Assembly: GCA_024641025.1 (NCBI GenBank) | Contig: JAHEDW010000018.1 | Coordinates: 1-40,805, forward strand | Direction of reading: 5' to 3' | Length of the DNA stretch: 40,805 bases | Source of the DNA: Gallionella sp. | GTDB lineage: Bacteria > Pseudomonadota > Gammaproteobacteria > Burkholderiales > Gallionellaceae | Part shown: one piece after another, positions 5,493 to 40,494 of the stretch | Position numbering within the stretch: position 1 is the first letter of the stretch | Layout: the number at the start of each line of letters is the position of its first letter | Notes under the pieces: model-generated | What the model was told of the DNA's origin: nothing | Seen by the model: the letters and a program-made list of their open reading frames with translations, nothing else | Databases searched by the model: none | Made by a program: the position numbers and the translations under genes

Positions 5493-7200
5493 AACGTGCG
5501 AGTCGCGCGTATAAACCACCCTGCTTGCGTAAATCTTCAGGGGTGCCTGTTTCGACAATGTGACCGTGTTCCATTACCACGATGCGATCCGCCTTCTGCA
5601 CAGTGGCAAGACGATGCGCGATGATCAGCGTTGTCCGCCCCTTCATCGCCGCATTCAGACCCTGTTGCACCAAGATCTCGGACTCAGCATCCAATGCACT
5701 GGTCGCCTCATCAAGCAGCAACAGTGGTGCGTTCTTGAGCATCGCCCGCGCTATCGCAATACGCTGACGCTGGCCACCGGATAATCGAGTACCGCGTTCT
5801 CCCAGGAATGTTTGGTATCCGTCAGGCAAGCGACCGATATATTCATCAACCAGTGCAGCTTTTGCAGCTGCCATTACCTCTTCGTTGCCGGCATCGGGCC
5901 GACCATAGCGGATATTATCCAATGCATTGGCAGAAAAGATCACGGGGTCTTGAGGTACGATCGCGATCTTTTCTCTTAGCTCATGCAAACTGAATTGGCG
6001 GATATCCTGTCCATTCAGGAGGATGCGCCCAGAACTCACGTCATAATATCTCAGCAGCAGTTGAAACATCGTGGTTTTTCCTGCACCGGATGGTCCAACC
6101 AGAGCGATGCTTTCCCCCGGCGCGATATCAAGTACTATTTCATCCAACGCAGCGAGTTCTTGTCGTGCAGGGTAACGAAAAGTGACTTGATCGAAGCGAA
6201 GCGCCGCCTGACTCGGAAGTGGAATAGGCTTTGGGCTTGCAATTTCGGTGATTGCAGACTCAGCATGCAACAGTTCCAGCAGTCGCTCGGCAGCACCGGC
6301 AGCCCGCATCACGTCGCCCCAGACTTCTGCCATCGTGCCGACGCCCCCAGCTACCAGGGCCGCATACAGAATGAATGAGGCCAGTTCACCGCCAGTCATG
6401 CTGCCGTCATGCACCTGATTTGCGCCGACCCATAGCACAAAGATAATGGTGCCCATCACCGCTGTGATAATCAGTGCGGTCATCGCTGCTCGTACCCGAG
6501 TACGACGGATCGCAGTGACAAAACTCACTTCAGTGCGATCCGCGAAGCGAAGCTTTTCTCGCTGCTCCTGGGTGTAAGCCTGCACGGTTGGTATCGCGTT
6601 CAGGATCTCGCCCGCTAGCGCGGATGCATCGGCAATCTTATCTTGCGAATCACGCGACAACTTTTTGACTTTCCGTCCGACTGCAAAAATTGGCAACATC
6701 AGCAATGCCATCAGGCCAAGGTTCAGTGAAAAAAGATATATGCTGGTTATCGCGAGCATGATCATGCCGCCGATGAACTGGAACACGCTTCGCAAACCCA
6801 TCGAGATGGAACTGCCTACCACGGTCTGGATCAATGTCGTGTCGCCAGTCAACCTGGAAAGCACTTCCCCGGTCTGCAAGGTCTCAAAGAATTGGGGCGA
6901 TTGTGCCAACACCCTTGAATATACTGCGCTGCGGATATCGGCAGTAACCCGCTCGCCTACCCAGGAGATGGTGTAAAAGCGTGCCGACACTGCGAGTGCC
7001 CATAGACTGGCCATCCCGAACAGCAACGCGAAGTGTCCATTCAGGCTCAATGTACCAAGCACTTCGCCAGCAGGCTCCTGACGCTGCCCGAAACCAAAAT
7101 CGATAAGATCACGAAAAGCTAACGGAACAAGCAGGATCGTTGTGGAGGCGAGACACAACAACAGGAATGCCACAACGATTCGTGCACGATAGGGTCGCAA
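5476..7200 (-). CDS. MsbA-type ABC exporter (membrane plus ATPase half-transporter)
   Basis: The frame codes at least 574 residues. Residues about 1-300 form a six-helix ABC type-1 membrane domain (opening RIVVAFLLLCLASTTILLVPL). Residues about 330-574 form the ATPase: Walker A GPSGAGKTT, signature LSGGQRQRIAIARA, Walker B LLLLDEATSALD and the switch IAHR. As a half-transporter it should dimerise in the inner membrane and export a lipid, drug or peptide; the substrate is unknown. The start given is a TTG with no ribosome site. Family-like sequence (LSSLRDLWPF) continues in frame upstream to a stop at 7312-7314, with no ATG, GTG or TTG in that part. An ATT at 7267-7269 behind AGGA is a possible true start, giving 597 residues. 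Confidence 0.9.
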   Translation of the reverse strand: MRPYRARIVVAFLLLCLASTTILLVPLAFRDLIDFGFGQRQEPAGEVLGTLSLNGHFALLFGMASLWALAVSARFYTISWVGERVTADIRSAVYSRVLAQSPQFFETLQTGEVLSRLTGDTTLIQTVVGSSISMGLRSVFQFIGGMIMLAITSIYLFSLNLGLMALLMLPIFAVGRKVKKLSRDSQDKIADASALAGEILNAIPTVQAYTQEQREKLRFADRTEVSFVTAIRRTRVRAAMTALIITAVMGTIIFVLWVGANQVHDGSMTGGELASFILYAALVAGGVGTMAEVWGDVMRAAGAAERLLELLHAESAITEIASPKPIPLPSQAALRFDQVTFRYPARQELAALDEIVLDIAPGESIALVGPSGAGKTTMFQLLLRYYDVSSGRILLNGQDIRQFSLHELREKIAIVPQDPVIFSANALDNIRYGRPDAGNEEVMAAAKAALVDEYIGRLPDGYQTFLGERGTRLSGGQRQRIAIARAMLKNAPLLLLDEATSALDAESEILVQQGLNAAMKGRTTLIIAHRLATVQKADRIVVMEHGHIVETGTPEDLRKQGGLYARLARLQFEI

Positions 7201-28909: not shown

Positions 28910-30055
28910 TTGCCGAATCTGATGCCAAACAGATCTCCTGACCTGTTATCCGACCTAGAGAAGGACACGCTGCAGCGATTCATCGCCAGTTTGCCAGGCA
29001 TGGCCTGCAAAATCGAATTGCAGGATTCTGGTTCCATTGCATTCTCCTATGTCAGTGAAGGTTGCTCGTCACTACTCGAGATCACTCCCGATGAACTATT
29101 GAGTGATTCGTCGCATTTCATTAGGCGAATCCACTCGGAAGACATTTCAACCTTTTTGGAAACATTGCAGCAGTCTGCAAAAAACCTTTGCTTCTGGGAA
29201 TGGCAGGGAAGGATCCAGTTGTCTGGCAATAGAACAAAGTGGATCAGCATGGGGTCGATGCCGCACCTATCCCCTGACGAAAATACATTCTGGGAGGGCA
29301 TGGTTCTCGACATCACTGAAAACAAATTGGCGTCACTCGAGATCAGGCGTACCCAGCAACAACTCCAGGAGCTAACCTCGCACATTCAGGATGCCAAGGA
29401 ACAGGAGCGCCTCCATATCGCTCGCGAAGTTCACGATGAAATCGGCAGTCTACTTACTGCCATCAGGATTGACCTGTCCTGGTTGATCCAGCGCCTCCCT
29501 GAAGGGGACCCATTACTCAGGGAAAAGGCCAGGACAATAGAGGAACTGGTAAACAAAGTGATATCTTCAGCAAACAATCTTGCTCACAGCTTACGTCCAG
29601 GCATACTGGATCATTTTGGCTTTATTGCTGCGATTGAAGTCGAGGCTCAAGAGTTCAGCAAGCGAAGCAGCATTACTTGCAATGTCATCGCTTCGGACGA
29701 AGAAATCCTGCTTTCCACCAACCTCTCAATTACCCTGTTCAGGATCTTCCAGGAAGCACTGAACAATATCCTCAAGCATGCCAAGGCAAAAAATGCCCAA
29801 GTCGAGATCGTAAAGGGGCACGACCATCTTGAACTGATCATTTCAGATGATGGCGTGGGAATCAGCGACAAGGCCCGCAACAAACCACGCTCCTTTGGGC
29901 TGCGCGGAATACATGAGCGCGTCACGTACCTTGGGGGTACGGTCAAGATTGCTGGTTCAGCCAACAAAGGAACGCAAATCGCAATCTGTATCCCGCTGGA
30001 AACGGACGAAGCAAATTCGACGATCCAGCAGCAAGCTCTTTTTGACGGCACATGA
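28910..30055 (+). CDS. PAS-domain sensor histidine kinase (NarX/DegS type)
   Basis: The 381-residue product has a PAS domain (about 25-145), a short coiled coil and a HisKA_3 dimer domain with the phosphorylated His175 in REVHDEIGSLLTAIRIDL. Then comes an ATPase domain with N-box FRIFQEALNNILKHA, G1 box SDDGVGI and G2 box FGLRGIHER. No signal peptide or membrane helix is seen, so it senses in the cytoplasm; the PAS ligand is unknown. It overlaps the next gene by four bases, and that response regulator is its likely partner. The start is TTG 28910; ATG 28922 is an alternative. It diverges from hisC. Confidence 0.93.
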   Translation: MPNLMPNRSPDLLSDLEKDTLQRFIASLPGMACKIELQDSGSIAFSYVSEGCSSLLEITPDELLSDSSHFIRRIHSEDISTFLETLQQSAKNLCFWEWQGRIQLSGNRTKWISMGSMPHLSPDENTFWEGMVLDITENKLASLEIRRTQQQLQELTSHIQDAKEQERLHIAREVHDEIGSLLTAIRIDLSWLIQRLPEGDPLLREKARTIEELVNKVISSANNLAHSLRPGILDHFGFIAAIEVEAQEFSKRSSITCNVIASDEEILLSTNLSITLFRIFQEALNNILKHAKAKNAQVEIVKGHDHLELIISDDGVGISDKARNKPRSFGLRGIHERVTYLGGTVKIAGSANKGTQIAICIPLETDEANSTIQQQALFDGT

Positions 30056-30699
30056 ATATGATAGACATCCTCGTTGTAGATGATCATGCCCTGATTCGCA
30101 AGGGGTTGAAACAACTTCTCGAAGAAAGCCCCAACTTCCAGATCAAGGGAGAAGCCGAATCCGGCATTCAGGCGGTCAAGATGCTGCGCGAGCAACATTT
30201 CGACCTGGTGTTATTGGACATGTCCTTGCCTGATAAACATGGGATGGATGTACTCAAGCAACTTAAGACGGAGCAACCTGACATCAAGGTGATCGTCCTT
30301 AGCATGTATCCTGAAGAACAATACGGTGTACGTGCTTTGAAAGCTGGAGCAGTGGGATATATCAACAAGCAAAGCGCAAGCGAAAAGCTTGTTGGAGCGA
30401 TACAACAGGTCATCAGTGGCAAGAAGTACATCAGCGAAGTCCTGGCTGAACAACTGCTGAGCAATTTGATTGGCGAATCGCATGACTTACTGCACCAAAA
30501 TCTCTCCAACCGGGAATATCAAACACTCTGCCTAATGGCATCGGGAAAATCCCTGACAGAAATTTCGGAGATCATGATGCTCAGCCCCAAGACTGTGAGT
30601 GTTTACCGTGCGCGCATGCTGGAGAAGATGAGTTTCAAGAACAATGCAGAGGCAGTCCATTATGCAATTGCTCACCGACTTGTGGAAGCAAAGAACTAA
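30052..30699 (+). CDS. NarL/FixJ-family response regulator
   Basis: The 215-residue product has an intact receiver: acidic pair VVDDHALIRKGL, phospho-acceptor Asp56 in LVLLDMSLPDKHG, and lysine in GYINKQ. A LuxR-type HTH (LSNREYQTLCLMASGKSLTEISEIMMLSPKTVSVYRARMLEKM) follows. It should be phosphorylated by the kinase just upstream and then bind DNA. Target genes are unknown. The four-base overlap (ATGA) couples the two genes. Confidence 0.95.
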   Translation: MNMIDILVVDDHALIRKGLKQLLEESPNFQIKGEAESGIQAVKMLREQHFDLVLLDMSLPDKHGMDVLKQLKTEQPDIKVIVLSMYPEEQYGVRALKAGAVGYINKQSASEKLVGAIQQVISGKKYISEVLAEQLLSNLIGESHDLLHQNLSNREYQTLCLMASGKSLTEISEIMMLSPKTVSVYRARMLEKMSFKNNAEAVHYAIAHRLVEAKN

Positions 30700-30880: not shown

Positions 30881-32761
30881 CTAATTGGCGTGCGTTACGC
30901 CAATCAACTCCTTGATGTCTAGTATCAATATGATTTCACCTTCGCTAGACACTGTAACTGCCGAGACTCCCTTGGGTCGGAAGGCATCGAATGGCTTGAT
31001 CACAACGTTATCCTGTCCAACAATAGAATCTACCAACATGATGAAATTATTTTTTCCTGACTGTACCAGCACGCCCACGGTAGAAGTACCACTTTGCTCC
31101 CATCCAAGCAGTTGAGCCAGCGACAGCACTGGAACTACCTTTCCATGTACCACCATGGATGGCCTGCCTGAAACCAACTGCAACTTGCCCGGCGTAACAG
31201 ACAGGATTTCGCTCGCCAAGGACAGCGGTACAGCAAATGACTGCTCTCCAAGTCGCACCATCAATACCGGCAGGATGGCCAACGTTAGTGGCAACAGGAT
31301 ATTGATCACGGTTCCCTTACCTGGCTCGGAATTGATACTGACCTCCCCGTTAAGTTCCTGTATGTCTGCTTTAACCACATCCAAGGCGGTTGCGCTTCCG
31401 CCATATTCATCATCGCTGCCAAATCCCGGCAGAAAAATTAGTTCCAGACACTGGCCATCTTCGAGTGTGTTTGCCACATCGCTGGAAATCAGTCCCTTTG
31501 CTCTGGCCTTGTTACGGATCGCATCTGGTTGCAAACCGCGCCCGTCATCAGTTATCGTAATCAGAATTTGGTCGCCTTCCTGATGCGCGCTCAATTCCAA
31601 AATGCTCTTGCTTGGCTTGCCGGCAGCAATTCTCGCCTCACCAGATTCGATGCCGGTGACTATTGCGCTACGCAGCAGGTTTTCTAAAGGCTCCTCAAGG
31701 TCTTCGATCAAGTTGGAGTCCAATTCGGTATCCACACCGTCAAGCAGCAATTCCACTTCCTTGCCCAAAGACCTCCCCAGGGAACTCGCCAGTGGCGGAT
31801 ACTTTTTGAAGATTCGCCCTATAGGTTGCATGCGGGTTTTGACCACCGCGCTCTGCAAATTAACCACCAAAGTTTCAAGTTGACTGATTGCCTGATCCAA
31901 CTCATGCATGGTGTCCGCATCGATGCGTCCCTGAACGACCTGTGTTCGTAAACGGGTCAAACGGCTCTTTGTTAACCCGATTTCGCCTGATATTCCTAAA
32001 AGTTGGTCAAGGCGTTCGGTATCCACGCGCACCGTATTCTTTGTGGATTCTTCTTCTGCAACATCAACTTTGCTTTCTTCCGTAACAGGTAAAGGAGTAT
32101 CCGTAACTAGCAACTCAAGCAAAGCATGATTGGCATCCACAGCATCAATTGGTGGTGCCTTCGCTTGTTCACCCTCCGCCACACCCACAGCAGCAATTGG
32201 TTGCGCCTTTGCTTTTTCATCAATCGCCGCATCTGCATCAACCTTGCTCTCTGCACTTGTAAGCGATTTATACAATTTGTCCCAATTCGCGGCATCTTGG
32301 GGTGCACTCCCTACGCCCCCATGCTCCCCTTTCGAAGCAGTTAACGGGGTTGCGAAAAATGAACTCCTCTTGCCAGTCAATGCTGCTTTCAAAGCATCGA
32401 TAAGTTCACGAGGCGCCTCTCTTGGTTGCATATTTTGCTGCAATGAACCGAACATCGTTCGCACTTCGGCCGTCGCCGCCGAAATTGCGACCATCAGTTC
32501 AGGCCCTAGCAATATTTCACGATTTCGCAACTTGTCAAACACGTTTTCAGTAATGTTGCACAGCGCAACCAGTTCGGTCGCATTGAGAAAGCCAGCACCT
32601 CCCTTTATGGTGTGAAAACCGCGAAATATCTCATTGAGCAACCTGCTGTCTTGTGGTGACTTTTCCAGATCCATCAACTTATTATCCACTTCGGAAAGCA
32701 TATCTCCGGCTTCAAGTAGAAAGTCGCTTAACAGATCCTCCATGCCCGCAAAATCATTCAT
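30881..32761 (-). CDS. cheA: CheA-like chemotaxis protein with degenerate ATP-binding site
   Basis: The 626-residue product has the CheA domain order: Hpt domain (about 5-110) with His50 in FHTIKGGAGF; a low-complexity Ala/Lys linker (about 130-240); dimerisation helices (about 243-305); ATPase-like domain (about 310-490); CheW-like domain (about 495-625). The ATPase domain keeps the G1 box (DDGRGL), but the N-box reads NLLRSAIVTGIE, where CheA normally has HLVRNxxDHGIE, and the G2 box reads GGSATALDVV instead of GRGVGMDVV. The key Asn and two Gly residues are changed, so it may not bind ATP normally. The frame itself is intact. It is the last gene of the che cluster, one base after cheZ. Confidence 0.9.
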   Translation of the reverse strand: MNDFAGMEDLLSDFLLEAGDMLSEVDNKLMDLEKSPQDSRLLNEIFRGFHTIKGGAGFLNATELVALCNITENVFDKLRNREILLGPELMVAISAATAEVRTMFGSLQQNMQPREAPRELIDALKAALTGKRSSFFATPLTASKGEHGGVGSAPQDAANWDKLYKSLTSAESKVDADAAIDEKAKAQPIAAVGVAEGEQAKAPPIDAVDANHALLELLVTDTPLPVTEESKVDVAEEESTKNTVRVDTERLDQLLGISGEIGLTKSRLTRLRTQVVQGRIDADTMHELDQAISQLETLVVNLQSAVVKTRMQPIGRIFKKYPPLASSLGRSLGKEVELLLDGVDTELDSNLIEDLEEPLENLLRSAIVTGIESGEARIAAGKPSKSILELSAHQEGDQILITITDDGRGLQPDAIRNKARAKGLISSDVANTLEDGQCLELIFLPGFGSDDEYGGSATALDVVKADIQELNGEVSINSEPGKGTVINILLPLTLAILPVLMVRLGEQSFAVPLSLASEILSVTPGKLQLVSGRPSMVVHGKVVPVLSLAQLLGWEQSGTSTVGVLVQSGKNNFIMLVDSIVGQDNVVIKPFDAFRPKGVSAVTVSSEGEIILILDIKELIGVTHAN

Positions 32762-33619
32762 TTAGAACCCCAAACCTTCTAATAGATCGTCCACACGGTT
32801 CTGGCTGGGCGTAACATCCTTAGTGTTACGCGGTTTGATGACAGGTCCATTAGTCAGCCCTGTCTCAAGATTCGTTTTTGCCTTGGCGGGCGCGTTCTCC
32901 AACAACAGTGCCAATAACTGCTGCTCCAGGTTTTCAGTGATAGCAATTATTTTCCTGATGACCTGGCCAGTCAGGTCCTGAAAATCCTGCGCCATCATTA
33001 TTTCCATAAGATATGCATGGGTAGCCTTTGTTTGCTTGGGGACATCCTGCAAGAACGCTCGCGTTTGCTTAGTCAACTCCTTGAACTCCTCGACGTCGAG
33101 CTGCTTATCAAACATCATTTGCCATTTTCCCGCCAGACGGTGTGCCTCAACTTCCATAGATTCAACCAGCGGTTGTGCAGCCTCGGTGGCACTCAGTACA
33201 CGTTCTGCAGCCTGATGAGTCAATGTCGCCACATAATTCAAGCGGTCGCGTGCATCGGGAATCGAAGATGCAGCCTTTTCGATCTTCTTGTTCAAACCTA
33301 GCTCGCGCAACGCATCATGCAACGTACGTGTCATGTGCCCGATCTGATCGATCACATCTGCAGGTTGCGGCGTTGATGGGGCATTCTGCAATGGCGGGGC
33401 TCTCCTTGCTTCATACCCAGCTGGATCGCGGCGGAGTTGAGATGGGTTAAATTCCGGTGCCCTTGAAGCAGGTACAGTGTAATTTGCTCCGAGCGTAACC
33501 GATGACGGTTCCCTGGCCAATCTCTCTGCCTCCTTATTTGCCGCCACGATGCTATCGAACAACGCTTCGAGATCATCAGAGTCCGAATTGTCAGATTTTG
33601 CAGTCATGCCATCTTTCAC
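32762..33619 (-). CDS. cheZ: CheY-P phosphatase CheZ
   Basis: The 285-residue product has the long-helix CheZ core with the catalytic region [15 protein letters not shown] and the C-terminal CheY-binding tail [11 protein letters not shown] long Pro/Ser-rich N-terminus (to about residue 95) is extra compared with E. coli CheZ (214 residues). It speeds the dephosphorylation of CheY-P. GTG 33619 overlaps the cheY stop by four bases (GTGA). ATG 33607 is a second possible start. Confidence 0.93.
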
Positions 33620-34005
33620 TCTTGCATGGATTGAAATATTTTCATTAATTTTTCGTCAAGCTTTGCGGCCGTAAAGGGTTTTACAACATAGCCACTTGCA
33701 CCTGCCTTCGCAGCCAAAATGACATTATCCCTCGTAGCTTCCGCTGTTACCATGAGCACTGGCATATGCTTAAGTTTTGCGTCAGTTCTAATCGCATGCA
33801 ATAACTCTATGCCACTCATGTTGGGCATGTTCCAGTCCGTCACCACAAAATCGAAGTTTCCTTCTTTTAATTTTGCCAAGGCTTCAACCCCATCTTCTGC
33901 TTCCTGGACATTCATGAAACCCAACTCCTTGAGCAGATTGCGCAAGATGCGTCGCATCGTTGAAAAATCGTCAACCACGAGAAATCTTGTATCTTCCAAG
34001 CCCAT
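33616..34005 (-). CDS. cheY: Chemotaxis response regulator CheY
   Basis: The 129-residue single-domain receiver has the acidic pair Asp12/Asp13 in [12 protein letters not shown], phospho-acceptor Asp57 in [13 protein letters not shown], Thr87 in LMVTAEA and Lys109 in VVKPF. There is no output domain. CheY-P binds the flagellar switch. It lies upstream of cheZ, with overlapping genes. Confidence 0.95.
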
Positions 34006-34108: not shown

Positions 34109-35677
34109 TCATTTCAACAAGGGACGCAAAGTTGATGACAACAACACCGGGTCAAATTTCGGCACGTAATGATCGACACCGACACGCCTAGCCATTTCCC
34201 GATTGGCAGCAGATGATAATGATGTATGCATGACCACCGGTATTCCGTCAAAACGACGATCTGACTTGATGCGTTGTGCCAACACAAAACCATCCATCTC
34301 AGGCATTTCCGCATCAGTCATAATTACTTGTATCTGGTTGCTCAGCTTGGCTCCGTGAACCTGTGCACTATCAGCCATCGCACTGAGCCTATCCCAGGCT
34401 TTCTTTCCGTTGGCTGCCTGTATATACCTGACTGCCATCTTGTCCAGTACCTGGGTAATTTTTCTTCGCGCCACCACAGAGTCATCCACGAAAAAAACAC
34501 AAAGATCACGTTCGGATTCGACCCGTGCAATATTGCCAATAACGGTTTCACCGAAAGCATCAACCAAAATCTGCTCTACATCCAGTATTGAAATCAACGA
34601 ACCATCACTCAACTCCGTAATCGCTGTGATCCTTGCACCATTTTCGGAGAGCATTCCTTCGGTAGCGCGAACCTTGTCCCAATCTACGCGGATGACGCGA
34701 TCAACTCCCTGAACCAGAAAGCCAAGCGTGTGATTGTTAAATTCTGTGACCATCATGGTTCGGTGCTTCTGATGAGGAGTCATTCCCATGAAGCTCGCCA
34801 AGTTCAGTACTGGAATCACTCGTCCCTGAAATAGCACAATACCGTCCACGCCTGTCGGCATGTTCGGAGTACGGGTAATTTTCCCTGCTGGACAAATTTC
34901 CTTTACCTTGAACACGTTGATGCCGAATTTTTCATTGCTGCCCAAGCTGAACAGCAAGATCTCCATTTTGTTGGTTCCCACCAGGCTGGTTCGTGCCTCG
35001 ATTTGACTCGGCATCCGGTCTTCGACAGCAACGGACTCTGCTTCACCATGACTCGCCTCTAATCGCACCGAATCCAATTTTCGTGGTACATGATCGCGTG
35101 ACAGTAAGGCATCAGCGGGAAAAACTGAGGGATGCTCAATTACTGCCTGAACTTTTTCAATGTCCTTTGCCGGGTAATCAGGGCGGAGGAATTCAGCGAA
35201 CACCCTTTCCGTATCCAGCATCAATACACGATGCCCATCGTCCGCAGAAGTGATCGCAGTCACCAATCCGCCAAGTTCTGCTAGCAACTTGGGTGGGGGC
35301 ACTCGCATTGTCGCCTTGTCAACAATCAAGATATTGACAACCACCCTTACCATGAATCCCTTTGGCTTGCCGTCATACTCGGCAACGATCATGGTCTCCG
35401 GTTTACGATCAGTTTCAATTCCGATGTATTTCGCCAGGTCTATGACAGGAATCTGGTTGCCATGAAAATTAGCCATCCCCTCATAAGCAGAATCAACTAT
35501 CTGGGTACCAGTGATCACTGGAGAGCGAATCACTTCAAGAACCTTGAATACATAGATTCCGAAAGTCTCATCTCGACCGGTGCGGCCATCCATTCCCAAT
35601 GTGAACATCAGGATCTCTTGCTTGTTAGCTCCCGCCATCCCACTCCGGATATCGAAGTTATTCAACAAGTCGGGCAT
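34109..35677 (-). CDS. CheV-like coupling protein with two CheW domains and a receiver
   Basis: The 522-residue product has two CheW-type domains in a row (about 18-165 and 240-385), each with the pattern EILxFxLG...FGIxVFKVxEI and GxxxFxGxxIPVxxLxxxxG. A C-terminal receiver (about 395-520) follows, with FFVDDSVVARRKI, the acceptor region MTDAEMPEMDG, HTSLS and the lysine PKFD. Normal CheV has one CheW domain. It should bridge receptors and CheA and be tuned by phosphorylation. There is no separate CheW in the cluster, so this may be the coupling protein. The start is ATG 35677 behind AGGAG, not the frame opening at 35704. Confidence 0.93.
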   Translation of the reverse strand: MPDLLNNFDIRSGMAGANKQEILMFTLGMDGRTGRDETFGIYVFKVLEVIRSPVITGTQIVDSAYEGMANFHGNQIPVIDLAKYIGIETDRKPETMIVAEYDGKPKGFMVRVVVNILIVDKATMRVPPPKLLAELGGLVTAITSADDGHRVLMLDTERVFAEFLRPDYPAKDIEKVQAVIEHPSVFPADALLSRDHVPRKLDSVRLEASHGEAESVAVEDRMPSQIEARTSLVGTNKMEILLFSLGSNEKFGINVFKVKEICPAGKITRTPNMPTGVDGIVLFQGRVIPVLNLASFMGMTPHQKHRTMMVTEFNNHTLGFLVQGVDRVIRVDWDKVRATEGMLSENGARITAITELSDGSLISILDVEQILVDAFGETVIGNIARVESERDLCVFFVDDSVVARRKITQVLDKMAVRYIQAANGKKAWDRLSAMADSAQVHGAKLSNQIQVIMTDAEMPEMDGFVLAQRIKSDRRFDGIPVVMHTSLSSAANREMARRVGVDHYVPKFDPVLLSSTLRPLLK

Positions 35678-35755
35678 AAAATTCTCCTTGCTACAAATGC
35701 GCAACTCGCCATTGCACGCGTATCATGTATGAACCTGCTGCAAATCAAGATCAAA

Positions 35756-37381
35756 TCAGACTCGAAAACGGCTAACTGCATCATGCAACTCTTTAGCCAA
35801 TTCTTCCAAACGTACGATCTCCTTGTTATTCGAACGTACCGCCTCGTGATTTTCCTCTGACATCTGGGCGATCTTCTCCACATTGCGTGCAATCTCGATG
35901 CTGGCCCGACTTTGCTCGCTGACTGATGAAGCGATATCACGCACTCCACGACTGGATTGAGATACCGCTTCACCTGCTTCAATCAATACGTTGTAGACAC
36001 GCTCTATCTGCTCTTGAGTTGCCTGCAAGGAACGCAAACCGGTTTGAACAACCGACTCGACATTTCCTGATTTCTGGTTAAGAGAGTTTGTTATTTCATC
36101 GATCTCGTTGGCTGACTTGGCAGATCTTTCCGCCAGTTTGCGGACTTCATCCGCCACTGCTGCAAAACTTCGTCCCTGCTCTCCGGCTCGAGCAGCCTCA
36201 ATCGTCACGTTCAGCGCAAGAAGATTGGTTTGATCAGCGATATCCTTAACATGTTGGGTCATACCAGTAATTGCGCGAGTACTTTCGACATACTCCTTGA
36301 CTGAACCAGCAATCTGGTTGACCGCTTCCTGCACTCGCCTGATCTCACTTATCATCGCGGTCACATCTTGGTTTCCCTGTTCGGTTTGATGCAGGCTCAT
36401 CTCGGAAAGTTTGCGCACATCTTCGGCATTTTCGGCCACCGAATTGATGCTCTCGGTAATCTCTTCCACTGCTGCCGCTGTTGAACCGGCTGCTTCGCTC
36501 TGCACATGAGAACTCTGAGCAATTTGCCATGATGATGCGGATAATTGGGCTGCTGACTTTGAGACTTTGGCGGCATTATCGAGTACCTGCCGGATAATCT
36601 TGGAAATACCGTCCACCAGTTCGTTGAAGGCTTGCGCGGTCTTGCCGATCTCATCCTGACTTCGCACCACAACGCGCTTGGATAAATCACGATCGATACT
36701 CATATTCTGCATCACGATTTTGAGTTCGCGCGTTGTCTGGGTCACCTTGCCTATCAACCAACCGATGAGCAGGTACAATATGACCTGGATCGAGATCTGC
36801 GCGGTCCATAATGCGTAATTGGCAGTGCTTATTGCTGAGAATTCCTCGCTCAGATCCAGCGTGATGCTGGCAGCGCCATTTACTGTCCCGGCCTTCACCA
36901 TGTGGCACATCAGGCAATTTGTGCCACGGAATTCCTTTCTAGCTATGAAAGGTACAACCACGCGCATGGTTTGCTTGTCATCCTGCTTCGACAAGCTGGT
37001 TTGTACTTGAGCAGTATTTAGCGCAGCGCGATCCAGTTCATCTATCGGTTGCTCGGAAGGTAACCCGGCACCGAACTGATCCTGTACCGCTCTGCCACGG
37101 ATTACGCGCAACTCGACAATTTTTTCCGAGTCGCTCATTTTCTTGACATACAAGATGCGTTGATCCGGATCACTGATGATTCCATTGATCATCAGCATGT
37201 TCAGCCCATTAAGCACCCCGTCGGCAGACACCTTGGCTTTTTGTATGGACTCGTCAAGCACATGTTCTTCGAATTTGTTCAATGCGACGCTCTGCGCTAA
37301 AAGCAATACCACCAACAGCATCAGTTGGATGGGCAACTGAAGTTTGCTTTTCAAAGGAAGTTTATTCCACCAATTACCCAT
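35756..37381 (-). CDS. Methyl-accepting chemotaxis protein with periplasmic haem-c motif
   Basis: The 541-residue product has a membrane helix (about 15-35), a periplasmic domain (about 36-190), a second helix (about 191-212), HAMP (about 213-266) and an MCP signalling domain with the hairpin tip [41 protein letters not shown]. The periplasmic domain contains one CxxCH (Cys156-Cys159-His160) in [17 protein letters not shown], which would bind haem c. Similar DUF3365/PAS-like haem sensors are known in other bacteria. Redox, oxygen or energy sensing is the best guess. Its ATG follows directly on the stop of the small gene upstream (TAAATG). Confidence 0.93.
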
Positions 37382-37609
37382 TTATCTTCTCCGGGGTTTC
37401 GTATCGTTTTGAAGGGTATCCAAGTATTCCCAACACTCTAACGGCATGACGGCCGATTCGTTTGGCAAGATAGGGAAGTAAATATCCCCTAATTCACAGG
37501 ATTGAATTTTACATAACACCTCGCCATCGGCACAGGAGTCATGAAATTGGGTGGGAATTGCAGTGGTAACAAGCCGGTGAAGACTAATAAGAGACTTATC
37601 AGGCGGCAC
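37382..37609 (-). CDS. Small protein, 75 residues, unknown
   Basis: The frame starts at GTG 37609, inside the end of flhC, and its TAA stop touches the ATG of the chemoreceptor. The product has a cysteine-containing middle (SCADGEVLCKIQSCELGDIYFPILPNESAVMPLECWEYLD). It is not recognised. The overlap with flhC and close fit to the MCP favour a real gene, but its ribosome site is weak. Confidence 0.5.
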   Translation of the reverse strand: MPPDKSLISLHRLVTTAIPTQFHDSCADGEVLCKIQSCELGDIYFPILPNESAVMPLECWEYLDTLQNDTKPRRR

Positions 37610-38156
37610 TTGCTGCCGCTAATTCATTTTTCCTTGCGACCTTTGTCTTACCGGCACGCGTCGGTGGACGACAGATACCGCAAACATAATTAGCATGCAG
37701 ATCACCTGCATGGGCCACGAAATGGCCGCTGCATTCAACACAAGGTGCTAGACGCAGCATCTCCGCCCTGAAAAAGCGAATCATGAACCATGCGCGGGTA
37801 ATACTGAGAACGGGTTCTGAATCTTCGATGCCCTGAATTTGGTCGAGGTACAAGCGATATGCACTAATTAACGCTTGTACGCCGTCCACGCCGGCATTTT
37901 TGACCAGGAACTGGTAAATATCCATGAACAGGGATGAATGGATGTTCGGCTGCCAACTCATGAACCAATCAGTCGAGTAAGGCAACATCCCCTTGGAGGG
38001 TGACTCCTTCCTGACCTCTTTGTATAGCCTGAGCAATCGCTCACGGCTAAGTGATGTTTCTTCCTGAAGTAATTGCAAACGAGCACCCAATTCAATCAGG
38101 TCTATGGCGATCTTGACTTGTTGTGCCTCGCCCAGCACAGTTTTGTTGGCTAGCAT
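37599..38156 (-). CDS. flhC: Flagellar master regulator subunit FlhC
   Basis: The 185-residue product matches FlhC: AIDLIELGARLQLLQEETSLSRERLLRLYKEV, LPYSTDWFM, LDQIQGIEDSEPVLSITRAWFMIRFF, and the zinc-binding cysteines CVEC and CGIC in the last quarter. With FlhD it forms the complex that turns on class-2 flagellar genes. Start ATG 38156 lies six bases after AAGG; a TTG two codons upstream is less likely. It begins just after flhD and is followed by chemotaxis genes rather than motAB. Confidence 0.95.
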   Translation of the reverse strand: MLANKTVLGEAQQVKIAIDLIELGARLQLLQEETSLSRERLLRLYKEVRKESPSKGMLPYSTDWFMSWQPNIHSSLFMDIYQFLVKNAGVDGVQALISAYRLYLDQIQGIEDSEPVLSITRAWFMIRFFRAEMLRLAPCVECSGHFVAHAGDLHANYVCGICRPPTRAGKTKVARKNELAAASAA

Positions 38157-38164
38157 AACCAACC

Positions 38165-38482
38165 TTATGCCAACTCTTCGACAGGTTGCGAGGACATCAG
38201 GATCGCAGCATGTGCTTGGGACATCAAACGATCCTTATTGAAATCTGTAACCAGATTGAGGAGAACGTTCTCATCAAAACGGAAACGGCAAAGCATCATG
38301 TTTGATGCAGCCATTTTGATAATTTGAGTTGGAGTAAGATTGCCTACCACCTCCACCAGTTCCTTGCTGAGCCCCAAGCGGAAAATTGCGGATGGCTTGT
38401 CCTTTTTGATCATTTCCTGGGCCAACATCAGGTAAGTGAGGTTGATTTCGCGTATTCCTTCTTGCAATTGCATGGTGTTCAT
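38165..38482 (-). CDS. flhD: Flagellar master regulator subunit FlhD
   Basis: The 105-residue product matches FlhD: REINLTYLMLAQEMIKKDKPSAIFRLGLSKELVEVVGNLTPTQIIKMAASNMMLCRFRFDENVLLNLV. It forms the FlhD4C2 activator with FlhC. A strong GGGGG site precedes the ATG. It is the first gene of a minus-strand series that continues to cheA, so chemotaxis and flagellar control may share one transcript. Confidence 0.96.
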   Translation of the reverse strand: MNTMQLQEGIREINLTYLMLAQEMIKKDKPSAIFRLGLSKELVEVVGNLTPTQIIKMAASNMMLCRFRFDENVLLNLVTDFNKDRLMSQAHAAILMSSQPVEELA

Positions 38483-38799: not shown

Positions 38800-40494
38800 C
38801 TATCCACACAGCTCAAAGCATACCGCCCCTGGACTGTTGCTGGTCAGCTCCAGACGATAACCAAGCTGGCCTGCCCAACGGGAGGCTTGATACAAGCCAA
38901 TCCCGAGTCCGCTCTCGGAGACAATGGCGGTATGGAGCAGTTTGGCGGCAATTGCTTCTGGTATCGGATTCCCGTTATCACAGACTTGCAGGCGCAATGG
39001 TTCAGACTCGATTTCGACCCTGATTTCCAAGTCAGGGTCGTTCTGGCGTTTTTTCAGGACATTATCAAGCAAGTTGTCAATCACACAGTCCAACAATGGT
39101 GCTGGAATTTTTTTATCAGGCAGGTTGTCCGGCGCACGCCAGACGATGCCCTGAAACTGGTTGCGAAGCAGAACCGAGTTCCACCAAACATTGAGGGGTA
39201 ACTGGGCATTTTCAATTGTCGTCTCGGGTTGTTGCAGCTTGGTTAATGTTAGCTCGATGCGTTGTGTAAGCAGGGGTAGTTGCTGCCTTAGCAATTGCTG
39301 AGCTATTTGTTCGCGGCTTTGTGCGATTGATGTAAGTGATAGCAGTGACTGCAGCATATTCTTCAGATCGTGAGTAAGGCGCGACCCGGTCTCATAAACA
39401 GCCTGCAAGCGGGTGATTTCGCTCAGGCTTTGTTCGCGCTGCTTGGCCTGATAGAAATATCCAATCAGTTGGGCTAGCAATTGGACATGAAGTAACACGG
39501 ACGGGTTGAGCGATTGCTTGGCATATAGTGTCAATCGCAATTCTCCTTCCTGAGTCACTACTGCAAATTTGCTGAATTGTCCGGACTGTCCAGAGCCATC
39601 GGGAGATTGCCATGACAGGCCTGACAACCATGGCAGGTCGGCCAGCAAGCCGATTGCACGCCTAAGATAACTTGCAGAACTGGGTTCCCGCTGCGCTGCC
39701 TCGGCTAATTGAGCGAGCCAATTTTCAAACGGAGTACCAACGTTCAGCAAATAGCGCGAGAACAACACCTGCAGGCCGCCAAAACCGAAGCGAGGATTCC
39801 ATAAAGCACCGAGGGCCAACAACACAACTCCCATCAACAACAACGTGCGAAGCAGCGCTTCAAGATATTCAAGCCGACCCAGGTTCATGAAGGCCAGGCT
39901 ACCGAGTACCACCAAGGCCAACAGCATGAACAGCAACAAGCTGTAGATCAGATCGATCGCCTGGATGTTCTCGGTCTTTTCATGGCCGAAAGGGATGACA
40001 GCGACAACCAGTAGTATCGGGAGTACATACTTCATCAGGATATTTCCTGCTTCGATACCGGCTTGTGCCTGAATCAATTGAATGTTGGTTTGTGATGCAA
40101 ATAGGTTCGGCACAACCCAGAGCAGTAACACTGCAAGTAAGTAGGCCATGACCGTAAGATATAGCAACCGTGTCCATCGGTCCCGAAAAGCAAACACGCG
40201 AGCACCGACCAGGCCAAACAAGCCTGTCAGCCAGAACGCTATCGCCCACCAACTCAGAAAGAACATCGCGGCACCCGCTGCCAGCCCAATGAATACTACC
40301 GCGCCATTCCCAACATCTCTCTCACCGCGCCATAGTGGCTGCCAAAGCAGGAACAAGCCAAGGTGTGCAATCAATAATGGGCGAATCCAAAGGCTTTCCA
40401 CACCCAACATCAGCGCACTATGCAAAAGTACGAGCATCCCCAGCAATAGCCAGCGGCCGGTAAATAAGCGATTCCTCATATTAAGCGTCAGCAT
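38800..40494 (-). CDS. Membrane sensor histidine kinase, orphan
   Basis: The 564-residue product has about seven or eight membrane helices in its first 240 residues and a cytoplasmic kinase core. The core has the phosphorylated His in SRLTHDLKNMLQSLLSL, N-box CVIDNLLDNVLKKRQ, G1 box VCDNGNPIP and G2 box SGLGIGLYQASRWAG. The HDLKN motif resembles kinases such as PrsK of PEP-CTERM/exosortase systems, but the sensor part differs. No partner regulator is adjacent. It is divergent from a sigma-54 pilin-like gene, so a PilS-like role is possible but unproven. The start is ATG 40494. Confidence 0.85.
   Translation of the reverse strand: MLTLNMRNRLFTGRWLLLGMLVLLHSALMLGVESLWIRPLLIAHLGLFLLWQPLWRGERDVGNGAVVFIGLAAGAAMFFLSWWAIAFWLTGLFGLVGARVFAFRDRWTRLLYLTVMAYLLAVLLLWVVPNLFASQTNIQLIQAQAGIEAGNILMKYVLPILLVVAVIPFGHEKTENIQAIDLIYSLLLFMLLALVVLGSLAFMNLGRLEYLEALLRTLLLMGVVLLALGALWNPRFGFGGLQVLFSRYLLNVGTPFENWLAQLAEAAQREPSSASYLRRAIGLLADLPWLSGLSWQSPDGSGQSGQFSKFAVVTQEGELRLTLYAKQSLNPSVLLHVQLLAQLIGYFYQAKQREQSLSEITRLQAVYETGSRLTHDLKNMLQSLLSLTSIAQSREQIAQQLLRQQLPLLTQRIELTLTKLQQPETTIENAQLPLNVWWNSVLLRNQFQGIVWRAPDNLPDKKIPAPLLDCVIDNLLDNVLKKRQNDPDLEIRVEIESEPLRLQVCDNGNPIPEAIAAKLLHTAIVSESGLGIGLYQASRWAGQLGYRLELTSNSPGAVCFELCG

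Follow-up and report, generated by a model that had tools for sequence, protein, structure and literature searches.

Organization of the cheA locus

The window, that is, the whole stretch of 40,805 nucleotides of Gallionella sp. DNA analysed here, harbors on its minus strand, in this order, flhD, flhC, a receptor gene, a cheV fusion, cheY, cheZ and cheA; coordinates refer to this strand unless indicated otherwise. The cheA-like gene (30881..32761) is a single frame of 626 amino acids with zero internal stops, and translation together with a Pfam search revealed the architecture P1-linker-P3-P4-P5. The P1 (Hpt) domain spans residues 9-101 (32459..32737), the P3 dimerization domain residues 242-308 (31838..32038), the P4 (HATPase_c) domain residues 356-493 (31283..31696), and the CheW-like P5 domain residues 499-620 (30902..31267). 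The four families Hpt, H-kinase_dim, HATPase_c and CheW follow each other in CheA order, all of them over the Pfam cut-off, and no family was matched for P2 in this search. The NCBIfam equivalog scores fall below their cut-offs (PRK10547.1, 281.7 bits versus 793; CheA_Halo, 307.8 bits versus 950); as the intact relatives were not scored, these values alone do not remove the protein from the family.

The P1 domain contains His50 within the motif GFHTIKGGAG and retains Lys53 and Glu72, and His69, which presumably has a role in P1 near the phosphorylation site, is replaced by Asn. Within P4, alignment with relatives showed the G1 box DDGRGL (residues 405-410; 31532..31549) to be intact and two boxes to be degenerate. 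The N-box reads LLRSAIVTGIE (residues 362-372; 31646..31678) and contains Ser365, Val368 and Thr369 followed by the remaining Gly370, and the G2 box reads YGGSATALDVV (residues 453-463; 31373..31405), where Gly455 is kept, Ala457 and Ala459 are found, Arg456 is changed to Ser, and the loop is three residues shorter than in the relatives. An earlier reading of the sequence alone had reported the intact His50 and G1 box, Ser365, VTG at 368-370 and Ala457/Ala459, all of which were confirmed by translation and alignment. In addition, His361, which is His in 69/69 intact relatives counted, is changed to Asn. Hence, with regard to the N-box His, Asn, Asp and His and the G2 glycines of an active kinase, the protein carries H361N, N365S, D368V, H369T, G457A and G459A. 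We take the N-box and G2 residues to be those that hold Mg-ATP in CheA. The relatives contain a GRR-rich motif between P1 and P3 (residues about 131-240), where other CheA proteins have P2. This conserved linker motif, which may be a docking site, is gone from the window and from the Nitrosomonadales MAG L009.

Upstream of cheA, profile matches identified cheZ (32762..33619), the sole CheZ match in the genome, with an intact DFQDLTGQ motif, as well as cheY (33616..34005), whose phosphorylation residues are intact by alignment. The cheV fusion (34109..35704; Pfam) encodes CheW-CheW-REC and thus lacks one of the receivers encoded by the two tandem cheV genes found in the relatives. It is preceded by the gene for a methyl-accepting receptor (35756..37381; Pfam), and by flhC (37599..38162) and flhD (38165..38482), both assigned by profile matches. 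On the other side, cheA adjoins genes for a histidine kinase (PAS) and a LuxR-type regulator (28910..30699, plus strand), a pair likewise present in L009. Between the window and L009 the regulator shows 95% identity, the highest among the ten genes compared. Upstream of flhD, the frame 38800-40494 (minus strand) encodes a histidine-kinase-like protein with a weak PrsK match, which is 81% identical in the congener G016. In its N-terminal part the receptor contains a CLMCH (CxxCH) motif, possibly a c-type haem motif, which is kept in G016 and reads CLMCH or CLQCH in the matches of the best 15 relatives.

Degeneration of the P4 boxes among relatives

The window CheA was aligned with 73 relatives obtained by scanning named genomes, by title mostly Gallionella, Sideroxydans, Nitrotoga, Ferrovaceae, other Nitrosomonadales and unnamed betaproteobacteria. 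Both the N- and the G2-box are intact in 70/73. Of the other three, L009 (67% identity to the window CheA in the best segment) shows a related degeneration and L063 a partial alteration, whereas the sequence of L077 is too short for the boxes to be read. Within the genus, 46/76 genomes, the window's included, contain this CheA (best E <= 1e-157), and the boxes are intact in 44 of the 45 others and degenerate in G016; G004 has a further, incomplete copy (C1:1036776-1038149), which stands outside the box counts. Since the sequences match, G016 and L009 are apparently the same genome. The intact boxes of the relatives (70/73 and 44/45 genus genomes) led us to reject an ancestral family trait. The partly altered relative, L063:642-2414 of the betaproteobacterial MAG REEB203, carries H361P, R364C, H369Y and G457D, retains Asn365 and Asp368, and was apparently altered independently of the window. 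Relatives on plasmids were likewise rejected, as every one of the 451 matching records is below 60% identity.

L009 also has H361N, H369T, G459A and other changes. As it stems from a different assembly, a sequencing error is unlikely, and error or chance was rejected as an explanation. Positions 365 and 368 differ between the two lineages (Ser/Tyr and Val/Lys, respectively), as does the way in which the G2 loop is disrupted. Altogether 27 invariant P4 columns are altered in both, 12 to the same new residue and 15 differently, two of the latter being a gap in L009, which indicates that the loss began in the common ancestor of the window and L009 and went on separately. In a tree calculated from P1, P3 and P5 without P4, the two are sisters, and the node at which they join L070 (in genome G025) has a support of 100 (L065, L077 and L045 were left out of the tree and of the branch-length comparison). 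They are thus nested inside intact sequences, and the degeneration of the boxes is, judged by alignment and tree, a derived loss.

To compare the domains, L065 and L077 were dropped, leaving 71 relatives, and L009 and L063 were set aside to give a core of 69, in which columns at least 97% invariant were termed invariant; the box-residue counts use the same 69 rows. In P4, 37/122 such columns are changed in the window, as compared to a leave-one-out maximum of 10 in the intact relatives, and thus not by chance. The changes are concentrated in the N- and G2-boxes, with 19/30 columns there versus 18/92 elsewhere (Fisher p = 1.4e-5). The corresponding numbers are 3/67 for P1 (maximum 7), 8/40 for P3 (maximum 2) and 15/69 for P5, where the maximum of 27, followed by 12, may stem from the truncated L045. 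In the linker, 8/12 invariant columns are changed in the window and 7/12 in L009 (maximum 5).

A similar picture emerged from pairwise identities. The window and L009 are identical to 0.869 in P1, 0.769 in P3, 0.659 in P4 and 0.803 in P5, whereas 340 intact pairs of like P1 identity, a set that leaves out L009, L063, L065 and L077, average 0.896 in P3, 0.899 in P4 (minimum 0.848) and 0.895 in P5. The relative branch lengths of the window and L009 against the rest are 0.06 for P1, 0.16 for P3, 0.17 for P5 and 0.31 for P4. P1 therefore evolves most slowly of the four domains in the clade, and by these measures P4 appears most relaxed, P3 and P5 somewhat, and P1 least. Accordingly, P4 is the least conserved of the four domains between the window and L009, unlike the pattern in a published survey that ranks P4 first in conservation among the CheA domains and sees in it the domain defining the role of CheA (PMC10782961).

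The sequence-only reading had concluded from the open frame that the gene is kept by selection. An open frame alone is no argument; the conclusion itself is borne out by the substitution rates. NG86 dN/dS values between the window and L009 amount to about 0.15-0.16 for the whole gene, about 0.04 for P1 (dS 1.95), about 0.19 for P4 (dS 1.16) and about 0.10 for P5, no dS being obtained for P3; as dS exceeds 1, these values are rough. The window CheA has thus very probably been retained by selection.

The structure prediction suggested in the sequence-only reading yielded a model of the window CheA with a mean pLDDT of 72.1 and a pTM of 0.39. Over residues 351-490 the ten-residue blocks reach a pLDDT of 83-90, except for 76 and 51 at 441-460, and the G2 loop at 451-456 lies below 50. 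The modeled P4 superimposes on P4 of T. maritima (1i58_B) with a TM score of 0.94 and an rmsd of 1.6. Because P4 is intact in almost all of the 19 relatives on which the prediction drew, the model supports at most a retained P4 fold, and does not show ATP binding.

Flagellar genes, cheV and further CheA proteins

The genomic context, which the sequence-only reading had missed, revealed two further features: flagellar genes are missing, and cheV is fused. Flagellin, FlhA and FliM, the flagellar markers searched, were not found in the window genome (G000, 91% complete) or in G016 (64% complete), and FlhD is present in both. Among the 44 congeners with intact CheA, 43 encode flagellin and 42 FlhA; the exceptions, G044 (neither flagellin nor FlhA) and G063 (no FlhA), both have FliM, which was searched in 6 genomes, so that each of the 44 contains at least one of the three markers. 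The 30 congeners without this CheA comprise 24 without flagellin and FlhA, with FlhD in 0/24, and 6 that have flagellin; a flagellum therefore does not depend on this CheA. Behind cheA in the intact relative G025 lie FlhA and an FlhB-like frame (the latter named by eye), where the window and L009 have the regulator/kinase pair. Given the incompleteness of the genomes (91% and 64%), the missing genes could partly reflect assembly loss, above all in G016; the flagellum was very probably lost in the lineage of the window.

Two cheV frames are present in 65 of the 73 relatives (in three the first is cut by the contig edge), 7 loci are unreadable or cut, and L009 alone has the single CheW-CheW-REC fusion. 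By these counts, the fusion and the loss of one receiver were seen in the window and L009 only; the congener G044, with intact CheA, has one cheV frame. In G016 the same genes as in the window are split over two contigs. The dN/dS values between the window and G016 are 0.03-0.08 for flhD, flhC, the receptor gene and cheY; for both cheZ and the cheV fusion the value is 0.13. The residues that we take to be key to the roles of CheY, CheZ and the CheV receiver are unaltered in both the window and L009. Within the limits of the incomplete genomes, the loss of the kinase residues thus goes along with missing flagellar genes, and flhDC, the receptor gene, cheV, cheY, cheZ and cheA are under purifying selection.

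The genome was also inspected for a second cheA, as the sequence-only reading had advised. Three other CheA frames of 761, 984 and 2013 amino acids, all with Hpt matches, are located on contig C131. The N-, G1- and G2-boxes are intact in the 761- and 984-residue proteins, and in the 2013-residue protein (L124:4427-10465) the N-box has VHG in place of DHG, the other boxes being intact; D368V alone would hence not prove a dead kinase. No P1-less partner of the CheA4 type was found beside the window cheA. Several CheA proteins per genome are ordinary in this group, as Gallionella ES-2 contains five cheA genes according to the accessible part of the report (PMC3770913). Moreover, a second CheA with intact boxes is encoded downstream in 24/73 loci of the relatives, within the DNA fetched. 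The neighbors of the 761-residue CheA are two CheW frames, two receptor-like frames and CheR/CheD/CheB-like frames (all except CheW named by eye). The two CheW frames, each of 163 amino acids (L125:3545-4036 and 5829-6320; C131), flank a receptor-like frame and are identical over the 60 N-terminal residues compared. By eye, no drift of the window P3 towards P3 of the 761-residue CheA was seen, so that a mixed dimer of the two is not suggested.

Possible roles of the altered CheA

The sequence-only reading had proposed a poor or dead kinase, and the comparison with relatives supports this proposal well: the window CheA is very likely a dead or nearly dead kinase, to judge from its residues. With the N-box and G2 residues lost, it should phosphorylate neither itself nor a partner, and the intact G1 box would still permit some nucleotide binding. 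Its family, gene order and P1-P3-P4-P5 architecture are those of the CheA of the cheV-cheV-cheY-cheZ-cheA clusters of Gallionellaceae and other Nitrosomonadales (L010-L081), from which it differs, as those have intact boxes in 70/73, two cheV in 65/73 and flagellar genes in the 44 intact congeners. Likewise, P1, P3, P4, P5 and the P4 fold are as in CheA of E. coli and T. maritima (PDB 6s1k, 1b3q, 1i58), whereas the N-box and G2 residues are changed and no P2 was matched.

The closest precedent is CheA3 of Cereibacter (Rhodobacter) sphaeroides, which, as far as the accessible parts of the sources describe it, combines P1 and P5 with a degenerate kinase domain judged non-functional, does not autophosphorylate alone, and exemplifies with CheA4 the phosphorylation in trans of a CheA without kinase function (PMC10782961, PMC3591291). 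Similarly, the window CheA keeps a phosphorylatable-looking P1 and P5 along with a non-functional-looking kinase domain. By the same accounts, the middle part of CheA3 is long and altered and lacks helices, and its working partner is the P1-less CheA4 of the same operon, whereas the window CheA has a full-length P3-P4 with point changes, and its possible donors are Hpt-bearing CheA proteins encoded elsewhere. Borrelia CheA1 was considered as a further comparison, and nothing on its boxes was found in the accessible part of PMC10703414.

The most likely reading, to which we give an even chance, is that of a pseudokinase retained both as a scaffold and as a carrier of phosphohistidine, within a chemosensory unit that persisted after the flagellum was gone. 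In such a unit, P4 would keep its predicted fold but not the residues holding Mg-ATP, and thus support neither auto- nor partner phosphorylation, and P5 would place the protein in the receptor array. Another, intact CheA in that cell, the 761-residue protein being the best candidate, would phosphorylate the P1 histidine in trans, and from P1 the phosphate would move on either to CheY, which CheZ would reset, or to the one CheV receiver left; alternatively, P1 would take phosphate back from CheY. The output would no longer be the flagellar motor. Whether fed by another CheA or through phosphate exchange via P1, such a relay is a proposition that we regard as balanced. The sequence-only reading had likewise suggested a scaffold that relays phosphate from a different kinase, which the retained P1 and P5 and the three other Hpt-bearing CheA proteins make possible; against an efficient relay speak His69->Asn and the loss of the conserved linker motif. 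The acceleration of P3 and P5 (8/40 and 15/69 invariant columns) counts against the carrier reading as a whole.

The exchanged His69, the missing linker motif, the lost CheV receiver and the retained P5 would also fit a pure scaffold, whose P5 and P3 domains keep the receptors and CheV/CheW together in the array, with P1 no longer phosphorylated. As P1 evolves more slowly than the other three domains and has kept His50, Lys53 and Glu72, we regard this as rather unlikely. Slow decay, where the flagellum is gone, the chemotaxis operon is a remnant and the kinase domain was the first to go, would agree with the failure to find flagellin, FlhA and FliM in G000 and G016, with the lost cheV receiver, with the acceleration of P3, P4 and P5, and with the 24/76 genus genomes in which flagellin, FlhA, FlhD and this CheA are missing together. 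However, the frames are open in both lineages at dS above 1, the dN/dS values of flhD, flhC, the receptor gene and cheY (0.03-0.08) and of P1 (about 0.04) are low, and CheY, CheZ and the CheV receiver retain their key residues, which makes decay distinctly unlikely. A still active or nucleotide-sensing kinase, whose G1 box holds adenine while other residues replace those of N and G2, is very improbable in spite of the G1 motif DDGRG intact in both lineages, the predicted P4 fold, a P4 dN/dS of about 0.19, below 1, and the Val at the same position of the 2013-residue CheA with otherwise intact boxes, because His361, Asn365, Asp368 and His369 are all changed, with different residues at 365 and 368 in either lineage, and the disruption of the G2 loop is not the same in the window and L009.

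Extending the relay reading, we tentatively propose that in one Gallionella-like lineage a flagellar chemotaxis unit consisting of FlhDC, the receptor with its haem motif, CheV, CheY, CheZ and CheA outlived the flagellum and was rebuilt as a kinase-less hub, where a pseudokinase CheA carrying the phosphate of another system would link the two systems to a non-flagellar output. The window CheA represents an apparently independent natural pseudokinase CheA, for which intact relatives at about 60% identity are available for comparison. Its kinase loss is linked to the absence of flagellar genes from the two incomplete genomes, with CheY and CheZ still present, which makes the purpose of a chemotaxis signalling unit without a motor testable.

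The departures of CheY were compared between the presumed motor-binding face, assigned by E. coli numbering, and the other columns; both this comparison and that of the CheY key residues include L075, whose 25 departures suggest a wrong frame. A change on the motor-binding face is only suggestive, with 5/23 face columns changed in the window versus 4/69 others (p = 0.04, uncorrected), and 4/23 versus 4/69 in L009 (p = 0.10, uncorrected).
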